Positions 9,751-27,813 of a stretch of DNA of 33,738 bases are shown here, one piece after another (within the stretch, counting starts at the first letter, position 1; every line of letters begins with the position of its first letter). Under the pieces are notes generated by a model that saw nothing but the letters and a program-made list of their open reading frames with translations, made no database searches and was not told the origin of the DNA. The translations under genes and the position numbers were made by a program. The stretch spans positions 1-33,738 of the forward strand of contig NZ_BAFM01000027.1 of the NCBI RefSeq assembly GCF_000334895.1, in the 5' to 3' direction. Source of the stretch: Halococcus agarilyticus. Lineage in GTDB: Archaea > Halobacteriota > Halobacteria > Halobacteriales > Halococcaceae.

Positions 9751-10896
9751 ATGGAGGTCAGATCGATCGACGCGATCCCGCTGGAACACTCGCTCGAAAC
9801 GGGTCGCAAGTTCGGTGGCACGCGCGGGCAGACCGGCACACGAACGACCGCTCTCGTCCGCGTCGAAACCGCGGACGGAACGGTAGGCTGGGGGGAAGCG
9901 TTCGCCCCACCGCGTTCCGTTGCAACGCTGGTTAAAGAGACGATCGCCGATTCGATCGTTGGCGCGGAGCCGATCGTCGCCGAGTCGCTCGCCGAGCGAG
10001 TGTACACCGGGGACATCGGTGGCTATCACTTCGGCCGCGGTGGGTTCGCTCAGGCCGCACTCAGTGGCGTCGAGATTGCACTCTGGGACCTGCGCGGCAA
10101 GGAACAGGGGGCTCCGGTTCACGAACTCCTTGGGGGAGAGCGGACTGAGTCGCTAGTGCCCTACGCCTCGACTATGTACATCACCGAGTGGGGCGAAGAC
10201 CCCGCGGAGCCGATGGCAGCGGCCGTCGACGAGGAGTTTGCCGCGGCGAAGATCAAGATCGGACGGGGCATCGAAGACGACGTCCATCGAACCGCGACCG
10301 CGCGCGAGCACCTCGGCGACGAAGCCCACCTGATGGTGGATTACAACGGCAACTACACGCCGGCGCAGGCGATCCGATCGATCCAAGCCCTTTCGGAGTA
10401 CGACATCACGTGGGCCGAGGAGCCGGTGCCTCCGGAGAACTACTCGGGGTACCGCGAGATCCAGCGCCACGTCGACACGCCGCTCGCTGCGGGCGAGGCC
10501 CACTTCGGCCGGTTCGAGTTCAAGCGCCTTGTGGACGAGCGGTGTGTCGACGTGATCCAGCCCAACCTCGGCCGGTGTGGCGGGTTCGCCGAGGCGCGCT
10601 TTCTCGCCAAACTGGCGACCACCGAGAACGTCGCCGTCCGGCCACACGTCTGGAACAGCGCCGTCGGGACGACTGCGGCCGTCCAGTTCGCGGCCAGCCT
10701 CTCGACGTACCCACACAACCCCGATACCGTGCCCGAACCGGTGTTGTTCGAGTTCGACCGGAGCGAGAATCCCCTTCGGGAGGAGCTGCTCGTGGACCCG
10801 CTCGACCCGACCGGTGGGTCCCTGGAGGTCCCACAGGAACCCGGACTCGGCGTGACCGTCGACGAGAACGCCGTCGAGCAGTATCGGGTCGACTAA
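9751..10896 (+). CDS. Enolase-superfamily sugar-acid dehydratase (mandelate racemase subgroup), altered dyad
   Basis: This 381-residue enzyme has an enolase N-terminal capping domain (about 1-125) and a C-terminal barrel. Visible functional positions are the KxK base at K167/K169 (KIKIG), metal ligands D197 (DYNGN), E223 (WAEEP) and E249 (AAGEAHF), and His299 (RPHVWNS). These lie within two or three residues of the mandelate racemase numbers (164/166, 195, 221, 247, 297). The family removes a proton alpha to a carboxylate, usually to dehydrate galactonate, gluconate, galactarate or similar acids. The Asp that normally orients the His (MR Asp270) is Asn272 here, in IQPNLGRCGG. The neighbours suggest uronate or aldonate catabolism. 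The substrate is unknown. Confidence 0.87.
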   Translation: MEVRSIDAIPLEHSLETGRKFGGTRGQTGTRTTALVRVETADGTVGWGEAFAPPRSVATLVKETIADSIVGAEPIVAESLAERVYTGDIGGYHFGRGGFAQAALSGVEIALWDLRGKEQGAPVHELLGGERTESLVPYASTMYITEWGEDPAEPMAAAVDEEFAAAKIKIGRGIEDDVHRTATAREHLGDEAHLMVDYNGNYTPAQAIRSIQALSEYDITWAEEPVPPENYSGYREIQRHVDTPLAAGEAHFGRFEFKRLVDERCVDVIQPNLGRCGGFAEARFLAKLATTENVAVRPHVWNSAVGTTAAVQFAASLSTYPHNPDTVPEPVLFEFDRSENPLREELLVDPLDPTGGSLEVPQEPGLGVTVDENAVEQYRVD

Positions 10897-11420: not shown

Positions 11421-12662
11421 TCACGCCTTGTCGTACCGGAACTCTGTCCACGCACCCTCCACGAACGGATACTCCTCCACGACGTCGAGATTGACGTCGA
11501 TGCCGAGACCAGGCCCCTCGGGGACGGCGAGGCGGCCGTCGGTGATCTCCGGCTCTCCATCGAGCAAGTCGAACGCGAGGTCGAAGGGGTACATTCCGGG
11601 ATCGGGATCGGCCGCAAGCGCGGGATCGTTCTCGAACACGGGGTACTCCAGCAGCGAGACCTCGGGGGCAGCCGCGACGAGGTGGGCGTTCGCCACGAGG
11701 CCGAGCCACGTCCCGAAGTTGTGCGGGACGAACTCCATGTCGCGGCCTCGGCAGTGCTCGATGGCCTCCTGACAACCCGAGAAGCCCTCGTGGTGGCGCA
11801 CGTCGCCCTGCAGGAAATCCACCGCGCCGGTCTCGGCCAGATCGATCAGGCCCGCGAACGAGGGTTCACTCTCGCCGCCGGCGAGGGCCGCACCGGTCTC
11901 GGCCAGTTCGACGTACCCCTCGTAGTCGTCGGGTTCGACAGGCTCTTCGACCCAGTGGGCCCCGTGGTCAGCGGCGTAAGCGACCAATTCGCGTACGGTT
12001 TCAGGGTCGTAGCTCTCACGGAGCTTCCACCACGTGTGCGAGTCCAGCATGAACGCCATGTCGGTGAGCGCATCGGCCAATCGCTTGACGACCTCGCGGT
12101 CGCGAGCGGGACCGATTCCCGGTCGATACTTGTAGCCGGTGAAACCGAGGTCCTCGAGAACCAAGGCCTGGTCGACGTAGCCTTCGGGCTCCATATACAT
12201 CCCCGCGCTGGCGTACAGCGGGAGATGGGTGGTCGATTGGGTACCGTACTCCTCGGCGAGCAACTCATGGACCGGCGCGCCAAGTTCCTTGCCCCGAAGA
12301 TCATAGAGCGCCACGTCGATCGCCGAAATGGCTTCGCGCTGGAGCCGGGCCGGGAGGTCGGTCTTGCGGAGACGAGCGTGGGCCGCCGGGATTTCCTCGA
12401 TCGTTTCGCCGACGAGCGCGTCGGCGACCGGACCGTTCACGACCTCTCCGAAAGTCCCTAGAGAATCGTCCTCGAAGAACTCTCGCATCGCGGAACTGCT
12501 TGCGCCCGCCGTGGCGAACCCCTGGCGTCCATCTGCCGTCTCGACGACGACCAGTACGACGTCGCGTTTTCGTAGCCGGCGCGAGCCCCCGTGGAACCGT
12601 CGCTCCTGGGGCGGGTCGATTGGCGAAGAGAGTGCGTGTCCCTGCACGTCAGTGATCCGCAT
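11421..12662 (-). CDS. Enolase-superfamily sugar-acid dehydratase (mandelate racemase subgroup)
   Basis: This 413-residue protein has a capping domain (about 1-145) with the DVALYDLRGKELGAPVHELL block, then a barrel with K178-x-R180 (YKYRPG), D207 (LDSHTWW), E240 (WVEEP), E264 (AGGES), D287 (QGDVRHH) and H314 (VPHNFG). D287 and H314 are 27 apart, as in mandelate racemase (270/297), so the Asp-His dyad is complete. Replacement of the second Lys of KxK by Arg occurs in acid-sugar dehydratases of this subgroup. It most likely dehydrates an aldonate or aldarate to a 2-keto-3-deoxy acid. A TATA-like box at 12685-12692 supports the start. It is convergent with the other enolase-superfamily gene. 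The substrate is not predictable here. Confidence 0.87.
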   Translation of the reverse strand: MRITDVQGHALSSPIDPPQERRFHGGSRRLRKRDVVLVVVETADGRQGFATAGASSSAMREFFEDDSLGTFGEVVNGPVADALVGETIEEIPAAHARLRKTDLPARLQREAISAIDVALYDLRGKELGAPVHELLAEEYGTQSTTHLPLYASAGMYMEPEGYVDQALVLEDLGFTGYKYRPGIGPARDREVVKRLADALTDMAFMLDSHTWWKLRESYDPETVRELVAYAADHGAHWVEEPVEPDDYEGYVELAETGAALAGGESEPSFAGLIDLAETGAVDFLQGDVRHHEGFSGCQEAIEHCRGRDMEFVPHNFGTWLGLVANAHLVAAAPEVSLLEYPVFENDPALAADPDPGMYPFDLAFDLLDGEPEITDGRLAVPEGPGLGIDVNLDVVEEYPFVEGAWTEFRYDKA

Positions 12663-14571: not shown

Positions 14572-15447
14572 TCACTCGACGGTAGCCGGCGGCGTCACTT
14601 TCTTCAGGAGCCAGACGACGGTCTGGAAGAACAGGTAGGCAGCCACCATGATGAACAGGATCACCCCGAACATGTAGCCCAGATCGGCGTTCTTCCAGGC
14701 CAGCACGATCTGGTAGCCGATGCCCTGGGAGGAGGCGATGAACTCGGCGACGATGACGCCGATGATCGACAGCTGAACCGTCGACTTGATCGAGGACGCG
14801 ATGTGTGGCAGCGCCCGCCAGAACCTGAAATACCGCACCATCTGGACCCGTGTCGCACCCAGCACCGTACCGAGGTGCTCGAAACGCTCCTCGAGGGAGT
14901 TCATCCCGGTGACGGTTCCGAGGAAGACGGGGAAAAAGCCGACCCACGCGGCGAAGACCGTGACACCGTTGATGACGAACTGTTGGGTCGCGTCCGCTGC
15001 TGTCACCGAGCTCATCAGGTACGCCGATGGCCCGGTGAACTCGAGCAGCACGATCGGGTCCAGGACCGTGATGAACCAGATGATGAACACTGGCGCCAAG
15101 ACCGGGTGCGGGATCGCATACGCGAAGATCACCATCGGCATCGACATCTCTCGAACGAGGGTCAGCTCCGCAATGACGATGCCGAGTAGCACCCCGAACA
15201 GCACCGCGAGGACGAAGGCGACGGCGATCGAGGTGAACGTCTCCACGACCCTGACGAAGACGGTTTCGGCGTTGTCCACGAGCGAGCTCCAGGTGTACGT
15301 GGGGTAGGCGACGATCCGATTGTTGTCGATCAACATCGCGACGCTCTGCCAGAACAGCAGAAACGCGATCAGGGCAACGAGCGTCGGGACGCGATCGGTG
15401 ACCCAGTAGCGGGCACGCACCGCCAGGTTCCCCTTGTCGGTCGCCAT
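14572..15447 (-). CDS. ABC transporter permease (NitT/TauT, SsuC type), second of pair
   Basis: This 291-residue membrane protein of the BPD_transp_1 superfamily forms half of the channel of a nitrate/sulfonate/taurine-type importer. The N-terminal helix (VALIAFLLFWQSVAMLI), several further hydrophobic segments and the late EAA-like loop EERFEHLGTVLGATRVQMVR (docking site for the ATPase), followed by GVIVAEFIASSQGIGY, are typical of SsuC/TauC. The gene begins 3 bp after the stop of the other permease and so is translationally coupled. Two different permeases, rather than one doubled subunit, imply a heterodimeric channel. GC-rich and fully intact. Confidence 0.9.
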   Translation of the reverse strand: MATDKGNLAVRARYWVTDRVPTLVALIAFLLFWQSVAMLIDNNRIVAYPTYTWSSLVDNAETVFVRVVETFTSIAVAFVLAVLFGVLLGIVIAELTLVREMSMPMVIFAYAIPHPVLAPVFIIWFITVLDPIVLLEFTGPSAYLMSSVTAADATQQFVINGVTVFAAWVGFFPVFLGTVTGMNSLEERFEHLGTVLGATRVQMVRYFRFWRALPHIASSIKSTVQLSIIGVIVAEFIASSQGIGYQIVLAWKNADLGYMFGVILFIMVAAYLFFQTVVWLLKKVTPPATVE

Positions 15448-15450
15448 CTG

Positions 15451-16299
15451 TTACTGCTCCCCCATGAACGAAGAGTCCCGCCAGTGAACCACCCGTCGCT
15501 CGATCAGGAAGATCACCAACACGACGCCCGCGCTGATCACCCCGAGGATGAGGACGATCGCGACGGCGCGTCCCACGGCAGCCCGGCCGATGACGGACTT
15601 TGCCATCGAACCGATTCCGGGCGTCGTGCTGACGAACTCCCCGACGACCGCGCCGATCATCGCGAGGATGAACCCGATCTTCATGCCATCGAAGATGAAG
15701 GGGAGACCGTTCTGGAACCGCACGTACCGGAACTCCTCCCAGGTTCCGGCACCGAGCAGGTCGAGCATGTTCTCGGTCCGCTCGTCGACGCTGCGGAACC
15801 CGTCGATCGCCGCGATCAACATCGGGAAGAAGGCGACCCATGTCGCCATCACGTAGTTGGCGGCCGAGAGTCCGAGGAAGCCGACAAAGCCCATCCAGTA
15901 GATCGCCAGCGGCGTCACCGCGATCCGCGGAATCGTGTTCATGCCGACGACGAACGGCATCAGGGCACTCCGGAGGCGGTCGCTGGCGACGATCGGGATG
16001 GCCACCAGGATCGACAGGATCAACGAGGCGACGTATCCCACGCTCACGGCTGCGAGCGTGTTGGGGAGGACCAACAACATGACTCCCCAGATCCGCTGGA
16101 GTTCCGTGACCACGTCGATCGGTCCCGGGAAGTACGTCGAGGAGACGTCCACGAGGAGCGCCGTTGCCTGCCAGATGACCAGAAAACAGACCAGTCCGAA
16201 GATCGCAAGTCCGTACTGGCGGACCCGTCCGTCGCGTAGCGGCCCTTCACGCTCGCCAGCCAATGCACCTCCGACTTTCTGGATGGCGTCGGCGATCAT
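15451..16299 (-). CDS. ABC transporter permease (NitT/TauT, SsuC type), first of pair
   Basis: This 282-residue membrane protein has five to six hydrophobic segments, the EAA-type loop VDERTENMLDLLGAGTWEEF, and the following GMKIGFILAMIGAVVGEF segment characteristic of SsuC/TauC permeases. Its ATG overlaps the TGA of the ATPase gene (ATGA), a classic coupling arrangement, and the second permease follows after 3 bp. With the ATPase, the lipoprotein and the partner permease it makes a complete importer. The substrates of this class are usually organic anions (sulfonates, nitrate, pyrimidine precursors, phthalate-like acids), which fits a transporter linked to an amidohydrolase. Confidence 0.9.
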   Translation of the reverse strand: MIADAIQKVGGALAGEREGPLRDGRVRQYGLAIFGLVCFLVIWQATALLVDVSSTYFPGPIDVVTELQRIWGVMLLVLPNTLAAVSVGYVASLILSILVAIPIVASDRLRSALMPFVVGMNTIPRIAVTPLAIYWMGFVGFLGLSAANYVMATWVAFFPMLIAAIDGFRSVDERTENMLDLLGAGTWEEFRYVRFQNGLPFIFDGMKIGFILAMIGAVVGEFVSTTPGIGSMAKSVIGRAAVGRAVAIVLILGVISAGVVLVIFLIERRVVHWRDSSFMGEQ

Positions 16300-17138
16300 C
16301 GTTGGCTCTTGAAGTGCTGGTGAACCTCGGTTGATAGTTCGACGAAGCGGTCCGATCCCCGCGTCTCGTCGGTCCGCGGCCGCGGGAGGTCGATATCGAT
16401 GGTGTCGACGACCTGGCCCGGCCGGGACGAGAGCACGACCACCTTATCCGAGAGGAAGACGGCCTCATTCAGGTCGTGTGTGATGAAAAGCACCGTCTTC
16501 TCGGTTTCCTCCCAGATTCGCAACAGTTCGACGTTGAGCTCGTCTTTCGTCATCGCGTCGAGCGAGCCGAAGGGTTCGTCCATCAACAGCACCGACGGGT
16601 CGTAGATCAGTGCCTGCGTGATGGTGAGCCGCTGTTGCATCCCGCCCGAGAGCTCGTTGGGGTAGGCGTTCTCGAAGCCCTCGAGGCCCACCAGCGAAAG
16701 CAGGTCCTCGGCCCGCTCGCGATAGTGGTCCATCGACTCGGAGATGGCGCCGTTGCTCTTGAGAATCTGGACCGGGAGCATGACGTTTTTCTTTACGGTC
16801 CGCCACTCGAGGGCCACCGGTTGCTGGAACACGAGTCCGACCTCGCTCCGATCGTGGTCCTCGCTGTGGACGCTCGTGCCGGCGACATCGACGCTTCCAG
16901 CGGTCGGTTCCAGAATACCCGCCCCGAGGTGCAACAGGGTCGTTTTCCCACACCCCGAGGGGCCGACGACGGAGACGAACTCCCCGTCACCCACGTCCAG
17001 GTCGATGCCCTCCAGTGCAGTGACTGATTCCTCGGTCGGATCGGTACCGTACACCTTGTCCACGTCCGAGAACGATATCTTTGGGTCCGAAGTCGGTGAG
17101 GCGGTGTCCGGCCGCGCGTTTGCAATATCTTTACTCAT
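16296..17138 (-). CDS. ABC transporter ATP-binding protein (SsuB/TauB type)
   Basis: This 280-residue cytoplasmic ATPase powers the importer. Walker A is GPSGCGKTT (59-67), the Q-loop is at Q105 (FQQP), the signature LSGGMQQR at 163-170, Walker B LLMDEPFGSLDA (184-195) and the switch His221. The start at 17138 is chosen because it opens the first ABC-like residues (MSKDIANARP). An in-frame ATG at 17171 would add 11 residues lying within a duplicated start region. The segment containing the ATG occurs twice, 40 bp apart, and the upstream copy opens a 15-codon frame that ends across this start (see findings). A promoter-like TATA box at 17203-17210 suggests the ATPase and permeases can be transcribed apart from the binding protein. 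Confidence 0.93.
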   Translation of the reverse strand: MSKDIANARPDTASPTSDPKISFSDVDKVYGTDPTEESVTALEGIDLDVGDGEFVSVVGPSGCGKTTLLHLGAGILEPTAGSVDVAGTSVHSEDHDRSEVGLVFQQPVALEWRTVKKNVMLPVQILKSNGAISESMDHYRERAEDLLSLVGLEGFENAYPNELSGGMQQRLTITQALIYDPSVLLMDEPFGSLDAMTKDELNVELLRIWEETEKTVLFITHDLNEAVFLSDKVVVLSSRPGQVVDTIDIDLPRPRTDETRGSDRFVELSTEVHQHFKSQR

Positions 17139-17178
17139 TGTCGGTGGGGTGACTCTCGAACGACATAGCATTACTCAT
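17131..17178 (-). CDS. 15-codon upstream ORF overlapping the ATPase start
   Basis: ATG at 17178 opens MSNAMSFESHPTDNE and stops at TAA 17131-17133, overlapping the ATPase ATG (ATGAGTAA shared). It lies 25-32 bp after the TATA-like box, exactly where a leaderless message would begin. Termination there could re-initiate on the ATPase. It may equally be a neutral by-product of the local duplication. Confidence 0.35.
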   Translation of the reverse strand: MSNAMSFESHPTDNE

Positions 17179-17200
17179 TGTTGGTGGGATATTCCTCGAA
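17131..17200. repeat. Imperfect 40-bp tandem duplication of a start-codon region
   Basis: On the minus strand both copies read TTCGAG, then a CCCACC block, then ACAATGAGTAA. About 28 of 40 positions agree. The period of 40 bp (ATG at 17178 and at 17138) changes the frame between copies. Confidence 0.75.
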
Positions 17201-17442
17201 CGGTTTAAATGTGACGTGCGTCTGCCCGCGCGGCGGGACGGCAGGCTCTCCGGCCAGCCTCGCGGCCGTGTACTTTCGATCTCGTGCTCGTTTTCGAAAC
17301 GGCGACCGACACGGGTCGGTTCCCGTTGACGGCCTCATAGGGACCATTGTAATTTGCTATGGATCCGACACTGTATGCGGGCTCCAGTGATCGCGACATT
17401 CGGAACTCGATGCAACGGCTGAAAATGGTTACAACGGTCCCA
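17139..17442 (-). promoter_or_regulatory. Intergenic region with internal promoter between binding protein and ATPase
   Basis: The 304-bp gap holds the duplicated start region, a TATA-like ATTTAAAC at 17203-17210, and GC-rich inverted-repeat-prone sequence (CCCGCGCGGCGGG around 17225-17237, and GGCCGCGAGGCTGGCC on the minus strand near 17253-17268). These may form the end of the binding-protein message. Such a gap lets the abundant binding protein be made in excess of the membrane complex. Confidence 0.45.
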
Positions 17443-18771
17443 TCAATTACCCGACTCGGCCTCTGCGAATATCTCGGCGAACCGGCCACCCGTCTCCATA
17501 ACCTGGGCCCACTCGTCGTCCGTGAACTCGACCGGTTCCGAGGCCTCGAACGGCGCGCGATTGACCATCTCGCTGGCCGCTGGCACGACGGACGGGTCGT
17601 CGAGGAGTGCATTCGCGGCGCCGTCGCGTCCAACCTGGACGCCCTGCTCGGTGAAGTAACCGATTTGCTCCTCCTGGTAGCTGTTGTTGATCATGACCGC
17701 CACGGAGGTTTCGTACTGACCCCGCAGCTCCTCCTCGGTCCAGGTCTGGAGGTTGGGATTGACCTCGTTTTGCATCAGGTTGAGGTATTCGTCGCCGTTC
17801 AGGAGCACCCACTTCATGGTCTTGTGGAACCCGGTGAGCACGGCGGCCATGAACTCCTCGCTGTTCTCCTTGTTCTCGTACCAGCCGTTGTTGACCCAGA
17901 TCGACTGGCCGGGGATCGCACCGAACTGGGTCAGGGGGACGACGCCGAGCTCCACGTCGGCCGCCTCCTCGTAAGCGGTCAGGAGGTCGATCGACCCCCA
18001 GACGGCCTGTACATCGTTGGAGGCCAGGGTCGGTGGGCCGACCTCCTCGCCCGCGGCCCTGGTGCCGATTTCGCTGCCGTCCACGCCGGCGAGTTCGGGG
18101 TACATCGGCCAGGTCGAGGAGGCGAAGCCCGACGCGAGCAGGACGTCCTTGCCCGCGAGGTCGGCGGGACCGGACACCTCGTCGGTCCGGTAGATCAACG
18201 AGAGCAACGGCCGTGCCAGGTAATTGCCAACCAGGCTCATGTCCAGCGCTTCGGCCTCCTCGCCGCCATCCCAGACCGAGATGGCCGTCGCGAAGGAGGC
18301 ATAGCCCATCTCCGTGGTCCCGGTTCCGATGTTCAACGATTCCGTGTCCGAGCCGTTGCCTAGCTGGGCATCGACGTTGGGGACGCCTTCGTCAGCCCAG
18401 TAGCCTTCGAGCTCCGCGATGTGTGGCGTCCCGTGGGTCGGCTCTTTCTTCCAAGAGGCGGTGAACACGACCTCCTCCTCGTCCATGAATCCACTACTAC
18501 TGCCACCACCGCCGGCCGTCGTCTCGGCACCATCACCACCGCCAGCCGTCGTCTCGGCACCATCACTACCGCCAGACGTCGTCTCGGCACCATCACCACC
18601 ACCGCCACCGCCACCACCGTTACCGTCACCGGTACAACCCGCGAACATCATTACTCCCAACATACCTGCCGACCCATGCAGGAACTTTCGTCTGTCTATC
18701 TCACCTGGTAGGGTAGCATCAAGCTCTTCGATGATACTCTCTTTGGCCTTGTCCATGCCTTTGTCTGTCAT
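17443..18771 (-). CDS. NitT/TauT-type ABC substrate-binding lipoprotein
   Basis: This 442-residue extracellular binding protein resembles the NMT1/SsuA group (mature part starts EEEVVFTASWKKEPTHG, with LAGKDVLLASGFASSTWPMY and ENSEEFMAAVLTGFHKTMKW). Twin arginines at 27-28, a short hydrophobic stretch and a lipobox ending at Cys46 (MFAGC) predict Tat export and a lipid anchor. A long Gly-rich linker follows, with three copies of a ten-residue unit containing DGAETT, that should hold the domain away from the membrane. The start at 18771 is preferred over a longer frame because a TATA-like box (18794-18803) lies about 25 bp before it. First gene of the operon. Ligand unknown. Confidence 0.9.
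   Translation of the reverse strand: MTDKGMDKAKESIIEELDATLPGEIDRRKFLHGSAGMLGVMMFAGCTGDGNGGGGGGGGDGAETTSGGSDGAETTAGGGDGAETTAGGGGSSSGFMDEEEVVFTASWKKEPTHGTPHIAELEGYWADEGVPNVDAQLGNGSDTESLNIGTGTTEMGYASFATAISVWDGGEEAEALDMSLVGNYLARPLLSLIYRTDEVSGPADLAGKDVLLASGFASSTWPMYPELAGVDGSEIGTRAAGEEVGPPTLASNDVQAVWGSIDLLTAYEEAADVELGVVPLTQFGAIPGQSIWVNNGWYENKENSEEFMAAVLTGFHKTMKWVLLNGDEYLNLMQNEVNPNLQTWTEEELRGQYETSVAVMINNSYQEEQIGYFTEQGVQVGRDGAANALLDDPSVVPAASEMVNRAPFEASEPVEFTDDEWAQVMETGGRFAEIFAEAESGN
18511..18600. repeat. Three tandem 30-bp repeats in the lipoprotein linker
   Basis: Units share the core GTCGTCTCGGCACCATCA and differ by a few bases. On the coding strand each gives GDGAETTAGG-like ten-residue units. 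A (CCACCG)n-like tract follows at about 18597-18620 and encodes the poly-Gly run. Confidence 0.85.
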
Positions 18772-18793
18772 ACACATCCAGATGTGATGCCGA

Positions 18794-18803
18794 GTATATA
18801 AAT
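18794..18803 (-). promoter_or_regulatory. TATA box of the NitT/TauT operon
   Basis: ATTTATATAC on the minus strand, about 25 bp before the chosen ATG at 18771, is the strongest TATA box in the window. Confidence 0.6.
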
Positions 18804-18835
18804 GTTGCTGTTGATTCCGGCAAGGAAGTATCAAG

Positions 18836-19339: not shown

Positions 19340-20107
19340 TCAAACGAGGGATAGTTCCAGTTCGTACTCGCTTACCAGTTCGGTGAGCACCTCCGCGAGC
19401 TGCCGTTCCCGCTCGGAGCCGGCAAAGGAGTGTTTCGGGCCGGTGATGCTGAACCCACCGATGACGTCGCCGGACTGTTCGGTCGCCGCCACGCCGACCG
19501 CGTGGAGATCCTCAATGTTCTCCTCGTGGTTGACGGCATATCCCCGGTCGCGTATCTCCTCAAGTTCCGCGAACAGATCCGCTCGGTTCGTGATCGTCTG
19601 GTTCGTCTCGGCGGGCAATCCCCACCTGTCGAGGATCTGCTCAACGCGCCGTCGGGGCAGTTTCGACAGTATCGATTTCCCGACCGCCGTGCTGTGTAGG
19701 TACAGCCGGTTTCCCATGCGCTCGTGTGCCCATCCCATCTTGTTGCCCGACGCTGAGTGGATGAACACGGCTTTCCCCCCCATCTCTACAGAGAAGTTCG
19801 ACCGGAATCCGACCTGTTCGAACATCTTCTCCGTGAACTCGCGTGCCAGCACGAACGCCTTTTTGCGGGTGCGGACCTCGTTGCCCAGCCGAAGCAACTC
19901 CGGCCCAAGATAGTAAATGTCGCCCCGCTTTATTACGAACTCCGTCGACTTCAGCGTCGCTAGGTGGCCGTGAATCGTGCTCTTCGGGGCCTCCATCAAC
20001 TCCGCGATCTCGGTGACCCGTCCGCCGTCGATTTCTTCAAGCAGTTCGAGTATCTCGATCGACATCGCGGTCGTGTTTAGGGTTTTTGACTCATTGTCGT
20101 CTACCAT
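19340..20107 (-). CDS. IclR-family transcriptional regulator
   Basis: This 255-residue regulator has a winged HTH in the first 75 residues (GGRVTEIAELMEAPKSTIHG HLATLKSTEFVI) and an IclR effector domain with LYLHSTAVGKSILSKLP, RGYAVNHEENIEDLHAVGVA and GGFSITGPKHSF. It is the natural candidate to control the ABC operon to its right (18771-14572) and/or the oxidoreductase to its left (20373-21479), both on the same strand. A palindrome at 20136-20154, just upstream of a TATA-like TTATTAG (20129-20135), suggests self-regulation. The effector is probably a pathway acid. Confidence 0.93.
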   Translation of the reverse strand: MVDDNESKTLNTTAMSIEILELLEEIDGGRVTEIAELMEAPKSTIHGHLATLKSTEFVIKRGDIYYLGPELLRLGNEVRTRKKAFVLAREFTEKMFEQVGFRSNFSVEMGGKAVFIHSASGNKMGWAHERMGNRLYLHSTAVGKSILSKLPRRRVEQILDRWGLPAETNQTITNRADLFAELEEIRDRGYAVNHEENIEDLHAVGVAATEQSGDVIGGFSITGPKHSFAGSERERQLAEVLTELVSEYELELSLV

Positions 20108-20372: not shown

Positions 20373-21479
20373 TCACTCCGCTACTTCGATCCATCCGCCG
20401 CGGTCGTCAGATTCGTAGGCCGCGTCGAGAACGCGAAGCAACTGGACCGCGTCGTCGACGGTCGCCGGCACATCCCCAGTCTCGTAGCCATCGAAGAAGG
20501 ATTTGAAATAGTCCCGAACGTAGTCGCCCCAGGCTGGGAATCGGTCGTATGAGAACTCGTAGTCGATGGTACGGCGGGGAGCACCCGACCAGTCGTGGTG
20601 ATCCGCTGTGAGTTCAAGAGGAACTGTGGGCTCATGCTGAAGCGAGTCATGATGGACCGGGGTCCTAGCCTGGGCGTCGGTTCCGTAGATGCCGAGATGT
20701 GTATCCTTGCCCCGTTCGCTCAGGTAGTAGCCCGTGTGGTACGTCCCCAACACACCACCCTCGGTCTCGAACTGAAGGACCGCGCCCGCCTCAATGTCGA
20801 CCTCGTCCGTTCGGTGGAACCGGGCGTTTACCTCCGAAATCGGATCGTCGAGCACCCAGGGTATCATATCCACCCAGTGGGGACCGATCCACTGGAGTGA
20901 ACCGCCGCGACTCGTCGCTTGATCGTAGATGTAGTGTTCGGTGTTCCGATAGGATAGCTGGCTAGCATTGAACCGACCCTGGACGGTCCAGACGTCGCCG
21001 AAAAAGCCGTCACGGACTCGGTCACGGAGATCCATCGTGACGGGGTTCGCTCGGTAGAACGTCGTCGGCGAGACAGTAATGCCTGACTCGTTCGCCCGCT
21101 TCGCTATCCCCTCCAAGTCGGCAGCCGTCCGCCCGATTGGCTTTTCACTAATGACGTGGATACCCTCATCCACGGCGGTTTCGACGATCGACGGCGTCTC
21201 GTCGTTGCGGTAGGTGATCCAGACTACCTCGATGTCCCCTTCGGTGAGCAAGCGGTGGGGGTTCTCGTAGACCGACGCTCCAGCCACGAGGTCAGCGACC
21301 TCCTGGCTCTCCGTCGTGATCTCGTCCGGTCGCTCATCCATGGCGGCGAGGTTTTCGAGATCGATCCGTCGACCCGGTTCACAGACCGCCGTGATGTCGA
21401 CGCCGAGCCCGCTTGCGATAGCGAAGTACGGATCGCGGTGATGGTGATCAACGCCGATGTACCCTGTTTTCACACCCAT
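20373..21479 (-). CDS. Gfo/Idh/MocA-family oxidoreductase
   Basis: This 368-residue NAD(P)-dependent dehydrogenase acts on sugars, inositols or their acids. The N-terminal Rossmann domain starts VKTGYIGVDHHHRDPYFAIA, where the usual GxGxxG is altered to GYIGVDHHH. The family signature EKPIGRTAADLEG marks the domain junction, and a C-terminal alpha/beta domain follows with the substrate-site region GGSLQWIGPHWVDM. The start at 21479 is chosen because a TATA-like ATATAT (21502-21507) lies 23-28 bp upstream; a longer in-frame ATG (21503) would sit inside that box. It diverges from a second Gfo/Idh gene. Substrate unknown. Confidence 0.88.
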   Translation of the reverse strand: MGVKTGYIGVDHHHRDPYFAIASGLGVDITAVCEPGRRIDLENLAAMDERPDEITTESQEVADLVAGASVYENPHRLLTEGDIEVVWITYRNDETPSIVETAVDEGIHVISEKPIGRTAADLEGIAKRANESGITVSPTTFYRANPVTMDLRDRVRDGFFGDVWTVQGRFNASQLSYRNTEHYIYDQATSRGGSLQWIGPHWVDMIPWVLDDPISEVNARFHRTDEVDIEAGAVLQFETEGGVLGTYHTGYYLSERGKDTHLGIYGTDAQARTPVHHDSLQHEPTVPLELTADHHDWSGAPRRTIDYEFSYDRFPAWGDYVRDYFKSFFDGYETGDVPATVDDAVQLLRVLDAAYESDDRGGWIEVAE

Positions 21480-21501
21480 GGCCACACACCGGGTCGGGAA
21501 C

Positions 21502-21507
21502 ATATAT
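21502..21507 (-). promoter_or_regulatory. TATA-like box of the minus-strand Gfo/Idh gene
   Basis: ATATAT lies 23-28 bp before the ATG at 21479, which decides between two in-frame start codons. Confidence 0.45.
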
Positions 21508-21700
21508 GAAGATTCTGGTCACCGGTACCGCTGATGTGGAATGTCGGGTCGGTGATGGTCCTCCAGCGGACGGAGAACCGTTCGCCTTCCATTCACTCGG
21601 TCGAAACTTCAACCGCCACGGATCTGCCAGGGTGCTCTCCATCAGGTGACCGAAACGTTGTTACCATGTGCCGTGTCATATGAGACGAGGTAGTAGATCC

Positions 21701-22849
21701 ATGCAGGAAATTGGCATTATTATGAACGGTGTGACGGGCCGGATGGGAACGAACCAGCATCTCATCCGTTCGATCCTAGCGCTTCGAGACGAGGGCGGTG
21801 TCGAATTGCCCTCCGGAGAGCACGTGATTCCGGAACCAATGCTCGTCGGGCGGGATGAGCGTAAGTTGCGAGCATTGAGCGAGGAGCACGGCGTCGACCG
21901 GTGGACCGCCGACCCCGACCTCGAATCGTGTCTGGACGGCGACGACGAGATCTACTTCGATTCGCAGATCACGCCACGGCGGCCCGACGCGCTCCGGAGA
22001 GCCATCGAGGCGGGAAAGGACGTGTACTGCGAAAAGCCGCTGGCTATGGACCTAGACAGGGCCCTAGAGGTAACACGTGTCGCCGAACGAAGCGGCGTCA
22101 AGCACGGCATCGTTCAGGACAAACTCTGGCTTCCCGGGTTGATGAAACTCGATCGGCTGATCGATCAGGGATTTTTCGGAGACATACTCTCGGTGCGTAT
22201 CGAGTTCGGGTACTGGGTGTTCAGTGGTCACGGCCAGCCGGCACAGCGGCCCTCCTGGAACTATCGGGCAGAAGACGGTGGAGGGATCATCGACGACATG
22301 TTTTCCCACTGGAGTTACGTTCTGGAGAGTCTCTTCGGTCGAGTCGAGTCTGTGACGTGTCTCGGAAGGACCCACATCCCCAACCGGGTCGATGAGAATG
22401 GCGACGAGTACGAGGCCACCGCTGACGACGCGGCATACGCCATCATGGAACTGGAGGGCGACACCGTCGCCCAGCTCAACTCCTCGTGGACGACACGGGT
22501 CAAGCGCGACGACTTACTCGAGATACAGGTCGACGGCACGGAGGGAAGCGCCGTCGCAGGATTACGGGAGTGCACGACCCAACACCGCGCCAACACGCCG
22601 AAACCCGAATGGAACCCGGACCAGCCGACCGAACACGACTTCCACGAGGACTGGGAGCGGGTGCCCGACAACCGGGAGTTCGAGAACGCGTTCAAACAAC
22701 AGTGGGCCGAGTTCATCCGCTACGTCGTCGCGGACGAACCGTTCCCCTGGGATTTCCGCGCCGGAGCGAAGGGGGTCCAGCTCACCGAGGCAAGCCACCG
22801 CTCTTGGGACGAAAAACGGCGCGTTACGGTCGACGAACTCCGGATCTGA
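21701..22849 (+). CDS. Gfo/Idh/MocA-family oxidoreductase (larger form)
   Basis: This 382-residue protein opens with a nucleotide-binding loop MNGVTGRMGTNQHLIRSI, then has the family signature VYCEKPLAMD at the domain junction, WNYRAEDGGGIIDDMFSHWS with the His-containing active-site helix, and a C-terminal sheet domain. A loop near the N-terminus (DEGGVELPSGEHVIPEPMLV) is longer than in typical members. In-frame upstream ATGs exist at 21668 and 21680, but 21701 gives the normal N-terminus. It is divergent from the other Gfo/Idh gene, so the two dehydrogenases could act on successive or epimeric intermediates. Substrate unknown. Confidence 0.86.
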   Translation: MQEIGIIMNGVTGRMGTNQHLIRSILALRDEGGVELPSGEHVIPEPMLVGRDERKLRALSEEHGVDRWTADPDLESCLDGDDEIYFDSQITPRRPDALRRAIEAGKDVYCEKPLAMDLDRALEVTRVAERSGVKHGIVQDKLWLPGLMKLDRLIDQGFFGDILSVRIEFGYWVFSGHGQPAQRPSWNYRAEDGGGIIDDMFSHWSYVLESLFGRVESVTCLGRTHIPNRVDENGDEYEATADDAAYAIMELEGDTVAQLNSSWTTRVKRDDLLEIQVDGTEGSAVAGLRECTTQHRANTPKPEWNPDQPTEHDFHEDWERVPDNREFENAFKQQWAEFIRYVVADEPFPWDFRAGAKGVQLTEASHRSWDEKRRVTVDELRI

Positions 22850-22932: not shown

Positions 22933-24303
22933 TCACGTGCCTCCCGTATCGGCACTGGCGGAACGCTCGTACGGCGATGGTGCGGTAAAAGCGCCCGATT
23001 CGAAGCGGATCGGTGACGGTTCCTCGAGAACACGGAGGTCGTCGCGATCGCGTGCCTCCTCAACCAGGGCCGTCGAGGCGTACAGGCGTTGGAGGCGCAT
23101 CGTGTCCGTTGCGCGAAGGACGCGAACGGTCGCCGGATCGACGACACCAATGGTCGAGAGCGCCGCCACGAGGCCGGCACGGTCGGTTTCGACGGCCGGT
23201 GGAAGGCGAACGCCCCTAGTAGTGCTCGCCGTTAGTGCGTTGATGAGCGTCGTCGGCATATCCACCTCGGCGAGGAGATCCCGATGGACGAAATCGGCCG
23301 AGCCCATACCCATGGCGTTTCCGTGAGTCGTCTCGGTGAGCGCGCGCGTGTAGATCCGTTTGATACTCGGCGTTTCGGGTTCCGGTTCTTGAATTGCGAA
23401 CGGCCGACGACCGATGACATTAGTATCCATGCCCTGGCCGCTGATGTCCTTTCCCTGGCGGTCCAGGACGAGGACATCGATGTCCTGAAACGGGATTTTC
23501 GGCATGATTTCGTAGGTCCGTTCGAGGAGTTCCACCTCCCGATCGAGGAGCCCTTCCGGTGGAATCCCCTCAATGTGCGTCGTTTCGTCGCGTTGGTCTT
23601 CCAAAACTGCGACGCCACCCACAACGGGCAGTTCCGCGAGCAGCCGTGCGGTGATCTCAGGGAGCATGTCCCGCAGCGACCAGTCGACCGCCCAGTCGTG
23701 AGCGATCTTCGCCCCGCGTTGCTTTCCCATTCCGATAACGAGCATCTTCGAAAGGCCGCTTTCGATCGAGCCGTCGAAATCGGTATGTGGTTTGATCCGG
23801 TTGATCGGGACGATCGCGTCGGCCTCGATCGCGTTGGCGTCGGCGACGACCGGCACGCCCCGCTCGTCGGTGCGACCGACCTCGACAACGTCCATGCTGG
23901 AGCGGATCTCACACTCGATCGCGGGCTCTGTCACGCCGAGATCGTTCAGCATCTCGCGCTGGCCCGCTGCCGTGGCACCGCCGTGGCTCCCCATCGCGGG
24001 GAAGACGAACGGTTCGTATCCGCGGTCGTGCGCCTCCGCGACCACCCCAGCGACGATGGTAGAGAGGTTCGCAATGCCGCGACTCCCGACACCGAGTGCG
24101 ATCTCACCGCCGGCCGGCAGGTCATCCAGCGGGAGCGATCCAAGAGCCTGCGACGCGCGATCCCCGATGGCGTCGGCGGGGATCGGGTCCGTCTCCCAGA
24201 CCTGCTCGATGAGTCCCATTTCCGGAAGCGGCGTCTCACCACATGCCTCACGGATCGACTGTTCCGGGACGGCAAGCGATCCGCGTGATCGGTTCGAATC
24301 CAT
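22933..24303 (-). CDS. LarA-like (nickel-pincer) racemase family protein
   Basis: This 456-residue member of the LarA/DUF2088 family resembles enzymes that racemise or epimerise 2-hydroxy acids with a nickel-pincer cofactor. Characteristic blocks are FPAMGSHGGATAAGQREML (H107), NRIKPHTDFDG (K171, H173), ESGLSKML (K186) and QRGAKIAHDW (H202). These sit close to the Lactobacillus LarA positions I recall (H108, H174, K184 pincer attachment, H200 metal ligand). So cofactor binding is plausible, although no cofactor-synthesis genes (LarB, LarC, LarE) are in the window. It lies between Gfo/Idh and FAH genes, suggesting it inverts a hydroxy-acid centre in the same pathway. A TATA-like box (about 24329-24336) supports the start. 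Confidence 0.82.
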   Translation of the reverse strand: MDSNRSRGSLAVPEQSIREACGETPLPEMGLIEQVWETDPIPADAIGDRASQALGSLPLDDLPAGGEIALGVGSRGIANLSTIVAGVVAEAHDRGYEPFVFPAMGSHGGATAAGQREMLNDLGVTEPAIECEIRSSMDVVEVGRTDERGVPVVADANAIEADAIVPINRIKPHTDFDGSIESGLSKMLVIGMGKQRGAKIAHDWAVDWSLRDMLPEITARLLAELPVVGGVAVLEDQRDETTHIEGIPPEGLLDREVELLERTYEIMPKIPFQDIDVLVLDRQGKDISGQGMDTNVIGRRPFAIQEPEPETPSIKRIYTRALTETTHGNAMGMGSADFVHRDLLAEVDMPTTLINALTASTTRGVRLPPAVETDRAGLVAALSTIGVVDPATVRVLRATDTMRLQRLYASTALVEEARDRDDLRVLEEPSPIRFESGAFTAPSPYERSASADTGGT

Positions 24304-24499: not shown

Positions 24500-25342
24500 A
24501 TGCAGTTTGTTCGATACAACGGCGGTTCCGGTCCTACCCTAGGTGTCAAGTCGGACTCGGCGATCCACGCCCTTGCTGATCTTCCGGAAGGGATCCCATC
24601 GCTACAGGAGATCACCAACCGGCGATATCTCGATCAGGTGCGGGAAAAACTCCGGAATGGTACACTCTCACGGATCGACGCGAATGAAGCGAATCTTCTG
24701 GCACCGGTTCCACGGCCCGGAAAGATCGTCTGTGCCGGACTCAACTATCGCGACCATGCCGACGAACAGGACGAAGCGATCCCGGACGAACCGCTCCTCT
24801 TTGCGAAGGCCCCGACGACCGTCACGAACCACCGGAGCCCGATCGTTCATCCCCCGAACGAAAAGGTCGACTACGAGGTCGAGCTCGCCGTCGTTATCGG
24901 CCGTACCGCCAAGAACCTCGAAGAGGGGGAGGTATACGACTACATCGCCGGATACACCGTCCTCAACGACGTGAGTGGGCGGAGCGCGCAGTTCTCCGAC
25001 GACCAGTTCTTTAGAGGGAAGAGTTACGACACGTTCTCGCCGATGGGTCCGACGCTGGTCACCGGCGAGGAGTACGATCCCAACTCGGTCGATGTCGCCT
25101 TGCGAGTCGACGGTGACACGAAACAGGCCTCGAACACGCGGCAATTCATTTTTGATGTTCCGGAGTTGGTCTCCTACGTTAGCCGGAACATGACGCTTCG
25201 AACCGGCGACATCGTCTCGACCGGCACGCCGGGCGGCGTCGGAATCTTCCGCGATCCCGTCGATCTGCTCGAACCCGGACAGACGTGTGAGGCCGAAATC
25301 GAGGGAATCGGTACGCTCGTGAATCCGGTTGTCGGCGAGTAA
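24500..25342 (+). CDS. Fumarylacetoacetate hydrolase (FAH) family protein
   Basis: This 280-residue enzyme cleaves or rearranges a diketo acid using a divalent metal. A short N-terminal domain (1-70) is followed by the FAH core with NYRDHADE (82-89), metal ligands E126 and E128 in DYEVELAVVIG and D157 in LNDVSGRSAQ, the catalytic-region Lys174 in FFRGKSYDTFSPMGP, and the GDIVSTGTPGGVG tail. Length matches the bacterial/archaeal group that includes 2,4-diketo-3-deoxy-L-fuconate hydrolase, acylpyruvases and 5-carboxymethyl-2-hydroxymuconate isomerase. Next to dehydrogenases and an enolase-like enzyme, hydrolysis of a 2,4-diketo-3-deoxy acid is the best guess: a dehydratase plus dehydrogenase makes exactly such a compound. 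Confidence 0.9.
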   Translation: MQFVRYNGGSGPTLGVKSDSAIHALADLPEGIPSLQEITNRRYLDQVREKLRNGTLSRIDANEANLLAPVPRPGKIVCAGLNYRDHADEQDEAIPDEPLLFAKAPTTVTNHRSPIVHPPNEKVDYEVELAVVIGRTAKNLEEGEVYDYIAGYTVLNDVSGRSAQFSDDQFFRGKSYDTFSPMGPTLVTGEEYDPNSVDVALRVDGDTKQASNTRQFIFDVPELVSYVSRNMTLRTGDIVSTGTPGGVGIFRDPVDLLEPGQTCEAEIEGIGTLVNPVVGE

Positions 25343-25502: not shown

Positions 25503-26951
25503 ATGGCGATTTCAGTATCGACCACGGAGTTCCATGTTCTCGATCTGGAAACCCGGATGCCGTTTCACTTCGGGAACGTCGAGGTCACCGAAATTCCGAA
25601 GGTGTTTCTCCAGATAGAGGCGGATATCAATGGCACGACACAGCAGGGGATAGCGATGGGAGGGCTGCTCCCTGGCTGGTTCTACAAGGACCCTAGCATG
25701 AGCCTCGAGAACGGTTTGCGGAACATGATCGAGGCCTTCCGTTCGGCGGCGGACAGTGCCCGAACGCTCAATCCGGAACCGACCGCGTTTGCCTTCTGGA
25801 AAGCGTTGTACGCGAAGCAGCGTGAGTGGGCGACCGACACCGACCACCCACCCTTGCTCTGGACGTACGGAGTAAGTCTCGTCGAGCAGGCGCTGATAGA
25901 CGCCGTTTGTTGTCATCGAAACGAATCGTTCGGGGAAGCGGTCCGGAAAAACACTTTGGGCATCGACTTGGGAACGATCTACGACGACTTGGCGGTGTAC
26001 GAACCCGCAGACCTCTTGCCGGAGGAACCGCGACGATCGACTGCGATCCGACACACTGTCGGTCATGGCGACCCGCTGACGACCGCCGACGTGACGCCGT
26101 CCGAGCAACTCGACGACGGACTGCCACAAACCCTCGCCGAGTACGTCCGTGAGGACGGCGTGACCTGTTTCAAAATCAAACTTTCCGCCGACCGTGCGTT
26201 CGATGGGGATCGGCTTTCCCGAATCGTCGACTTATTGGACGAACTTGACGTCAACGAGTACCGTTGTACGGTGGACGCAAACGAGGGGTACGATTCCGCA
26301 CGGGAATTCAAGCGTCATTGGGAGACACACACAGCAGACCCGAATCTATCGTCGCTGTTCGACCGTCTCGCGTACGTCGAACAACCCCTCGCGCGAGACG
26401 ACGCGTTCACGCCGGAAACCAAGCGAGTGTTGACGGAGTGGAACGACGCACCACCGATAATCATCGACGAATCGGATAGGTACATCGACAGTGCCGGTAC
26501 CGCGCTGGAGCACGGCTATGCCGGGACGAGTCACAAGAACTGCAAGGGTGTATTCAAGGGAATCGCGAACACATGCTTGATTGCCCATCACAATCGCATC
26601 GATATGGACCGACAGTACGTGCTGAGTGCGGAAGACCTCACGACCGTCGGTCCAGTCGAGTTGTTACAGGATCTCGCCGTCACGGCGACGATCGGCGCGA
26701 AACACGTTGAGCGAAACGGACATCACTACTTTCGGGGGTTAGACGCGTTCCCACAGACGATTCAGGAGACGATCATCGAAGCACACGGCGACCTGTATCG
26801 ACGCCACGAGGACGGATTTGCCATGCTTGATATCAACAGTGGCGAGGTCGATCTAACATCGATCGTCGACGCCCCGTTCGGGATCGCCGCCGAGTGCGAC
26901 ACGAATCAGTTCATGCCGCTTGAGATCTGGCTGGAGGATCTGGAAGAATAA
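25503..26951 (+). CDS. Divergent enolase-superfamily protein, function unknown
   Basis: This 482-residue protein is about 100 residues longer than normal members. The C-terminal barrel shows FKIKL (K224, K226), TVDANEGYD (D258), YVEQPL (E293), IIDESDRY (D322/E323) and GTSHKNCKGVFKG (K345 or K348). The order Lys-x-Lys, Asp, Glu, Asp/Glu, Lys is that of the muconate-lactonising/dipeptide-epimerase side of the superfamily, which has a second catalytic Lys instead of the His of mandelate racemase. Inserts are seen at 150-215 and 265-285. A barrel lyase, cycloisomerase or epimerase acting on a carboxylate is expected, but no known family of this length comes to mind. It follows the FAH gene by 160 bp with its own promoter. 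Confidence 0.75.
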   Translation: MAISVSTTEFHVLDLETRMPFHFGNVEVTEIPKVFLQIEADINGTTQQGIAMGGLLPGWFYKDPSMSLENGLRNMIEAFRSAADSARTLNPEPTAFAFWKALYAKQREWATDTDHPPLLWTYGVSLVEQALIDAVCCHRNESFGEAVRKNTLGIDLGTIYDDLAVYEPADLLPEEPRRSTAIRHTVGHGDPLTTADVTPSEQLDDGLPQTLAEYVREDGVTCFKIKLSADRAFDGDRLSRIVDLLDELDVNEYRCTVDANEGYDSAREFKRHWETHTADPNLSSLFDRLAYVEQPLARDDAFTPETKRVLTEWNDAPPIIIDESDRYIDSAGTALEHGYAGTSHKNCKGVFKGIANTCLIAHHNRIDMDRQYVLSAEDLTTVGPVELLQDLAVTATIGAKHVERNGHHYFRGLDAFPQTIQETIIEAHGDLYRRHEDGFAMLDINSGEVDLTSIVDAPFGIAAECDTNQFMPLEIWLEDLEE

Positions 26952-27432
26952 CGACGTTCTCACTTGTACTTCTGCGGTTGAGGCTGGACGAGTAGCACAG
27001 CCAGAGTTACCGGCACCGCCGTCTATCGGTTAGGAACGTATAGACGTTCAGACGCTCGATTGCCAGTAGGACAAGGGCTCATTCGAGCACCGTTACTGAA
27101 CCCGCTGAAACTGCCCATTCGCTGCAACTGTGACGATCTCCGCAGGAGGTGCGAACAACCCCAAAGCGGTATCTCCGCTCAACCGCAGAAGTACAGGGCC
27201 GACGCCGCCAAAAAATACGGCATCGGTTCTGGAAACTCGGGACACCACGCATCGTCAAATTCATGTCACGAGTGAGAACGGCAACCGTTGGCTTCTACGC
27301 AATCAAAGGCACGAGCGTTTCAGCTACGCCAGCGTATCTACCGCTAACCCGAGAGAGGAGCACTCAAAACATCCTCGAAACCGTACTCTGCTCCAGCTAC
27401 AAGCACGTGCCGAAGAGTGCTCCGCTATTACT
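26952..27432. other. Gap before the glycerate kinase fragment
   Basis: No supported gene, RNA or strong repeat. Open frames exist on both strands but look like chance. A plus-strand frame runs into the kinase fragment from 27130, but the first part does not resemble the family. Confidence 0.3.
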
Positions 27433-27813
27433 ATGGCCGTGTACGTTAGATCGTGGATCGTGAAGCCGAATCCCAACGACATCAGCGACGAACCGCGACG
27501 AGGAGGACTCGAATGTCTCGTGGCGGGGATCCGCGCCACGGAACCGTCGACGGTCGTCGCCGACCACGTTTCTGTCAACGAGGCAAACCTCGTCGTCCGT
27601 GGGGATCGGTACGACCTCGGCGGATACGACGACGTCATCGTTTTCGGTGGTGGCAATGCGGCCGCTACGGTGGCACAGACCATCGAGAAGATCCTCGGCG
27701 TTCGGATCAGGGGAGCGGTCGTGATCGACAATCACGCCGTCGAATCCAACGATGCGGGTGGTTTCCTCGACCGGCATGACGCGACAGTCGTCACCGTACC
27801 GGGACGAACGTGA
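27433..27813 (+). pseudogene. N-terminal fragment of a glycerate 2-kinase-like (DUF4147/MOFRL) protein
   Basis: About 126 residues from ATG 27433: GLECLVAGIRATEPSTVVAD, VSVNEANLVVRGDRYDLGGY, DDVIVFGGGNAAATVAQTIE and KILGVRIRGAVVIDN. This is the N-terminal Rossmann-like part of class-II glycerate kinases (usual length about 420-450), where GGGKAA is normally found; here the Lys is Asn (GGGNAA). The frame ends at TGA after VTVPGRT and the rest of the enzyme is missing, the amidohydrolase promoter following at once. A deletion has removed the catalytic C-terminal domain. An intact gene would phosphorylate glycerate or a related hydroxy acid at the end of a sugar-acid pathway. Confidence 0.65.

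Follow-up and report, generated by a model that had tools for sequence, protein, structure and literature searches.

Which reaction would be catalysed by the protein encoded at positions 25503..26951 on the plus strand of the window (the whole 33,738-nucleotide stretch of DNA that was analysed) is the question raised by this locus. The enolase superfamily, to which the gene was initially assigned, is a standard test case for one chemical step reused in many reactions, and its members of the muconate-lactonising (MLE) and mandelate-racemase (MR) types are routinely misnamed. The reading frame starts with ATG and runs uninterrupted for 482 codons (482 aa) with no internal stop, while the longest opposite-strand ORF inside it has only 205 codons and a TTG start. 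The gene is present as a single copy in its 3.48-Mb, 58-contig haloarchaeal genome. Full-length homologues were found in 11 other genomes among the 292 searched in the class, with 51-70% identity over about 474-480 aligned residues and a patchy distribution. The ORF of the initial annotation is thus real and intact.

The active site was then compared residue by residue. The initial annotation had placed K224-x-K226, D258, E293, D322/E323 and K345/K348 in the order typical of MLE and dipeptide epimerases. All eight residues were found as described, in the contexts FKIKL, VDANEGY, YVEQPL, IIIDESD and GTSHKNCKG, respectively, and 8/8 were invariant in alignment A3, which contains 15 homologues from haloarchaea, alphaproteobacteria and one actinobacterium with 29-68% identity to the query. 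As 55 of the 482 positions are invariant in A3, the chance of finding all eight named residues among them is about 1.8e-8. When the A3 profile was aligned by hmmsearch with 1nu5, a chloromuconate cycloisomerase, K224/K226, D258, E293-Q-P, D322-E-S and K345 (in S-x-K) all met their counterparts. Hence, the metal-ligand positions at the ends of beta 3, 4 and 5 are occupied by D258, E293 and D322, which match 1nu5 and are invariant, and the MLE-subgroup signature is present, with K224-x-K226 on beta 2 and K345 on beta 6.

These alignments show a two-domain architecture with the D258/E293/D322 ligand set and opposed lysines on beta 2 and beta 6. The N-terminal capping domain covers approximately residues 1-140 (25503..25922, plus strand) and carries the invariant F21/G24 and W59-F60-x-K62-x-P64 loops; it was delimited by the paralogue profile alignment from residue 5, the strand/helix order in a partial model and the invariant positions. 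The barrel core from beta 2 to beta 6 comprises residues 211-372 (26133..26618, plus strand) with all eight named residues, as judged by the 1nu5 alignment, invariance and predicted strands.

The second lysine was initially described as sitting in an unusual block, GTSHKNCKG, and this claim did not hold. The dipeptide-epimerase-like paralogues of the same genome, L050 and L051, carry I-N-V-K-L-M-K-S-G and I-K-L-M-K-C-G-G at the corresponding place, and the pattern common to all three is Lys, two residues, a second Lys and then Gly. GTSHKNCKG is a shortened form of the ordinary beta-6 K-x-x-K-x-G motif. In the 1nu5 alignment, K345 is the one that corresponds better to the catalytic lysine, though gap placement differs among alignments.

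Profile searches placed the protein in the superfamily at a distance. The query scored 20.9 bits against Pfam MR_MLE_C (PF13378), under the gathering cut-off of 29.4, while the same model matched 12 of the 15 A3 members with a best E-value of 1e-11. None of the NCBIfam models matched the query at E<=1; its relatives gave weak matches (best E 1.4e-6), none of them at equivalog level, with PRK02901 found in 11 members, menC in 4 and the muconate model TIGR02534 in one only. The lack of an NCBIfam match and the sub-threshold Pfam score agree with the earlier view that the protein forms a family of its own. A single-sequence PDB search with the query gave no match at E<=1, and the A3 profile retrieved 1nu5 first (E 2.8e-6), followed by a second chloromuconate cycloisomerase and then by dipeptide epimerases and N-acylamino-acid racemases. 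Comparison of A3 with the K/K-type paralogues L050 and L051 by hhalign gave 96% probability and E 4e-9 over residues 5-340, a span that corresponds to the capping domain plus the (beta/alpha)7-beta barrel up to beta 6, whereas the controls DHDPS, UxuA, amidohydrolase and Gfo reached about 0.1% or less. MLE-subgroup families are therefore the nearest by profile, but remote. Together with the ORF, the homologues and alignment A1, the two-domain profile homology, aligned catalytic residues and fold-library matches described below bear out the superfamily and MLE/dipeptide-epimerase layout first proposed, and the protein is almost certainly a Mg2+-dependent enolase-superfamily enzyme with an MLE-type (KxK/K) active site that belongs to a divergent and hitherto uncharacterised subfamily.

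Structure prediction, which had been proposed as a check, gave a partial answer: the best PDB matches were all from the enolase superfamily, but the AlphaFold models were of low confidence (pLDDT 40-48). Model 1, made with four family members as the alignment, had a pLDDT of 40.4, and the best matches of this model of the family alone were 2qdd, 1jpm, 3tte, 3rit and 1nu5. Model 2, in which the two MR-type proteins of the window were added, reached 47.7 and was led by 3r0u and 1jpm, a result biased by the presence of other superfamily rows in its alignment. Its predicted strands 222-226, 254-258, 289-293, 319-322 and 341-343 end close to the named residues. Because the TM-scores of the fold-library matches were low (0.14-0.37), the predicted models support the fold class only and not the active-site geometry, such as a meeting of the named residues at the barrel mouth.

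Some public names of the relatives point in another direction. Searching plasmid records (PLSDB) by tblastn yielded 128 records with relatives, mostly from Rhizobium and Sinorhizobium, and further ones from Halosolutus, Haladaptatus, Natronococcus and other haloarchaea, Nitratireductor, Chelatococcus and the actinobacterium Glaciihabitans. These relatives are about 30-40% identical to the query, most across nearly the whole length, and are called 'hypothetical protein', 'mandelate racemase', 'enolase' or 'enolase C-terminal domain-like protein'; their superfamily link is already in public annotation, and their function is not. The names 'mandelate racemase' and 'enolase', and the presence of about 20 MR_MLE_C proteins in the same genome, would fit an ordinary MR-subgroup sugar-acid dehydratase. 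However, such names are routinely misannotations (PMC7246345), no NCBIfam dehydratase equivalog was matched, and the query has its lysine on beta 6 but lacks the P-H-N/P-H-V His block found in the MR-type paralogues of the genome. The known sugar-acid dehydratases of the superfamily (fuconate, rhamnonate, gluconate/galactonate), with which a pathway context is probably shared, belong to the MR subgroup, in which a His on beta 7 (His-Asp dyad) takes the place of the lysine on beta 6. Membership of that subgroup is hence highly improbable. Two sugar-acid dehydratase-type (MR) proteins of the superfamily are encoded in the window itself, at 9751-10896 and 11421-12662. In total 21 MR_MLE_C matches were counted in the genome; although a few are weak or cover fragments, this is a large repertoire for a 3.5-Mb haloarchaeon.

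Haloarchaeal loci with the gene include those of Halobacteriales archaeon YIM A00010 (72% identity), Actinarchaeum halophilum (56%) and YIM A00013 (56%). No relatives were found in viral contigs when alignments A1 and A3, one rhizobial member and the MR protein of the window served as queries, and the protein was not found in the literature on the family, on haloarchaeal enolase-superfamily enzymes, on the rhizobial 'mandelate racemase' with 5-deoxy-glucuronate isomerase, or on DUF993. Some copies look decayed. At L035 8104-10441, on a Haladaptatus pallidirubidus plasmid, the enolase-like gene is split into three short annotated ORFs and the FAH matches lie in two frames, so both are probably pseudogenes or sequencing errors; at G289 C1:1803173-1803642 (L013, L016, L063), only N-terminal fragments with an in-frame stop remain, apparently a relic.

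The protein had also been described as unusually long with extra segments. It does exceed L050 and L051 (352 and 348 aa) by about 130 residues, mainly in the capping domain, at residues ~150 to 210 and toward the C-terminus, but this length is common to the whole family, in which the aligned stretches cover 449-492 aa. Besides F21, G24 and W59-F60-x-K62-x-P64 in the N-terminal loop, the family-specific invariants include R183-x-T185-x-G187 at beta 1, E377-D378-L379-T380 and E403-R404-N405-G406; by inspection, the last appears in place of the beta-8 D-L-D-G (D-x-D-G) of the paralogues, in a stretch that aligns uncertainly. The W-F-x-K-x-P, R-x-T-x-G, E-D-L-T and E-R-N-G blocks are more distinctive than GTSHKNCKG. 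As the N-terminal domain largely sets specificity in the enolase superfamily (PMC9795676), these family-specific loops argue for a different substrate, one of the family's own.

The closest sequence and fold matches suggest one alternative. Dipeptide epimerases and N-acylamino-acid racemases use two opposed lysines, one as acid and one as base, at a carboxylate's alpha-carbon, and the protein might likewise be a racemase or epimerase acting on a hydroxy acid, an N-acyl amino acid or a peptide-like conjugate. KxK/K dipeptide epimerases, N-acylamino-acid racemases and muconate enzymes are indeed the nearest matches, and GNAT, aminotransferase, amidase or peptidase genes occur in some haloarchaeal neighbourhoods. 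The L-Ala-D/L-Glu (dipeptide) epimerases 1jpm, 3r0u and 3rit, top fold-library matches, share the catalytic layout and the beta-6 K-x-x-K-x-G motif. The D-x-D motif on beta 8 of these enzymes binds the amino group of the dipeptide; here it appears as E403-R-N405-G, although the alignment is uncertain there, the N-terminal loops differ, and the query is about 130 residues longer. With o-succinylbenzoate synthase (OSBS) and N-acylamino-acid racemase the KxK/K chemistry is held in common, while the PRK02901 and menC matches are weak and below equivalog level, and no menaquinone genes were found near the query gene. Moreover, no NCBIfam epimerase or racemase model matched the protein and its relatives scored weakly, the adjoining nickel-pincer isomerase already offers epimerisation of 2-hydroxy acids, and sugar genes dominate the bacterial clusters. 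A racemase or epimerase, though compatible with such an active site, is therefore rather unlikely.

As for the window's own cluster, the enolase-like gene is preceded on the same strand, 160 bp upstream, by a gene for an FAH-family hydrolase (24500..25342, plus strand), whose nearest model is 2,4-didehydro-3-deoxy-L-rhamnonate hydrolase at 198 bits, under the cut-off of 500. Next comes a nickel-pincer-nucleotide isomerase of LarA homologue group 22 (22933..24303, minus strand; NCBIfam NF052515, 483 bits, cut-off 400), which is syntenic in L018 and L035 and stands beside the Gfo gene in G158; the accessible part of the LarA literature gives no assayed function under the name of this group, and in the window the isomerase adjoins genes for sugar acids. 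Conserved in-frame stops in the isomerase copies were considered and rejected, the counted stop being the terminal one. A Gfo/Idh/MocA dehydrogenase (21668..22849, plus strand), a second one in the cluster (20373..21503, minus strand), an IclR-type regulator (19340..20107, minus strand) and an NMT1/NitT-TauT-type ABC importer with binding protein, two permeases and ATPase (14572..18834, minus strand) complete the block, the regulator and the importer being conserved with the cluster.

This block recurs whole or in part in L018, L035, L021 and G269. Beside the enolase-like gene, FAH survives as a decayed remnant in L018 and as a broken copy in L035, and G269 has none there; it was therefore dropped as an obligatory partner. 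The partnership with the dehydrogenase at 21668..22849 reaches further: orthologues with 56-61% identity adjoin the enolase-like gene on alphaproteobacterial plasmids of Nitratireductor, Chelatococcus, Sinorhizobium, Phyllobacterium and Pararhizobium (L026 10416, L029 10377, L030 6645, L033 6668, L034 6653). Among 24 haloarchaeal genomes tested, just three have orthologues at this level, namely the window's genome, G269 and G158, and the enolase-like gene is present in each of them. The dehydrogenase is more conserved across domains than the enolase-like protein itself, and its adjacency in a haloarchaeon and in alphaproteobacteria suggests inter-domain transfer of a pathway core.

In the bacterial clusters there are also aldolase-like proteins of the DUF993 or DHDPS type, as well as sugar phosphate isomerase/epimerases. 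The DUF993 proteins, scoring 617-622 bits, are encoded either between the Gfo and enolase-like genes or next to them (L033 7820-8983, L029 11576-12760); a DHDPS-like G-I-K-V-S lysine motif was seen by eye in that of L033, and the DUF993 protein is a candidate 2-keto-3-deoxy-acid aldolase. Across haloarchaea, alphaproteobacteria and Glaciihabitans, the neighbours include Gfo/Idh/MocA dehydrogenases, sugar phosphate isomerase/epimerases, DHDPS or DUF993 proteins, FAH, regulators of the IclR or other types and sugar/carboxylate importers, which point to the catabolism of sugar acids or polyol acids. The neighbours differ in a second group of haloarchaea, which has an LLM flavoprotein, a different Gfo type, a DegT aminotransferase, GNAT and esterases. 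The search for relatives and their neighbourhoods suggested at the outset thus revealed homologues in both domains, with a shared Gfo partner and sugar-acid-type clusters.

Some of these neighbours would also suit a cycloisomerase or lyase, in which the enediolate expels a ring oxygen and thereby opens a sugar lactone or an anhydro-sugar acid. Muconate, aldarolactone and anhydrogalactonate cycloisomerases are known to expel a ring oxygen in this way. Among solved structures, the best relative is a chloromuconate cycloisomerase; 1nu5 and 4m0x share with the query the KxK on beta 2, the D/E/D ligands and the S-x-K on beta 6. The models closest to the Gfo partner are inositol 2-dehydrogenase and levoglucosan dehydrogenase, both for cyclic substrates, with scores far below cut-off, and the Rhizobium leguminosarum cluster also encodes a GH39-like glycosidase together with a protein resembling 5-deoxy-glucuronate isomerase. 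On the other hand, neither a lactonase gene nor a gene of the muconate pathway is a consistent neighbour, no catechol or muconate genes were found near the query gene, TIGR02534 was matched weakly by a single member, and the muconate enzymes have about 370 aa against 482 here, the query having extra loops and family-specific blocks. Ring opening, with which such an active site would likewise be compatible, is hence quite improbable.

Taken as a whole, the best explanation is that the protein is an MLE-subgroup enzyme dehydrating a polyhydroxy acid to a 2-keto-3-deoxy acid, to which we give a probability of roughly 0.45. Binding of a metal to the carboxylate and removal of the alpha-proton are the common partial reaction of the superfamily (PMC7246345). 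By analogy, Mg2+ would bind the substrate carboxylate, one lysine would take the alpha-proton and Mg2+ would stabilise the enediolate; as suggested by the neighbours, the enediolate of a sugar- or cyclitol-derived acid would then lose its beta-hydroxyl. The 2-keto-3-deoxy acid might be cleaved in bacteria by the DHDPS/DUF993-type aldolases, and in the window's cluster it might be oxidised by the Gfo/Idh/MocA dehydrogenases and then cut by the FAH-family hydrolase. In the non-phosphorylating breakdown of fucose and rhamnose, a dehydratase yields a 2-keto-3-deoxy acid that undergoes either aldol cleavage or the action of a 4-dehydrogenase and a 2,4-diketo hydrolase (PMC11199699), and the bacterial and window neighbour sets resemble these two routes. 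OSBS provides an MLE-subgroup precedent for dehydration; it is the MR, GlucD, ManD and GalD subgroups, rather than MLE, that contain most acid-sugar dehydratases in the superfamily (PMC7246345). The latter is a weak point of the dehydration proposal, as are the dispensable FAH and the second haloarchaeal group with different neighbours.

The initial annotation had further suggested that the protein may define a family with a new reaction. The subfamily is real, coherent and uncharacterised within a known superfamily, which by itself is not evidence of a new reaction; such a reaction is possible and unproven. We tentatively entertain that the enzymes form a new reaction family and perhaps even a separate subgroup of the superfamily. 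They would dehydrate, ring-open or epimerise an oxidised cyclic polyol or sugar acid in a step so far undescribed, within a pathway common to haloarchaea and alphaproteobacteria; their partners would be a specific Gfo/Idh/MocA dehydrogenase and, on the bacterial side, a DUF993 aldolase-like protein. The haloarchaeal and rhizobial members form a well-conserved and experimentally accessible set, and the cross-domain gene partner narrows the substrate. The reaction, if solved, would help to assign a function to DUF993 and give context for nickel-pincer isomerase group 22.

On the other side of the enolase-like gene, a 227-aa ORF (27130-27813, plus strand) aligns with DUF4147 over just the first third of that domain and seems to be truncated, and the related Halosolutus cluster (L021) contains a 1.3-kb DUF4147 gene.
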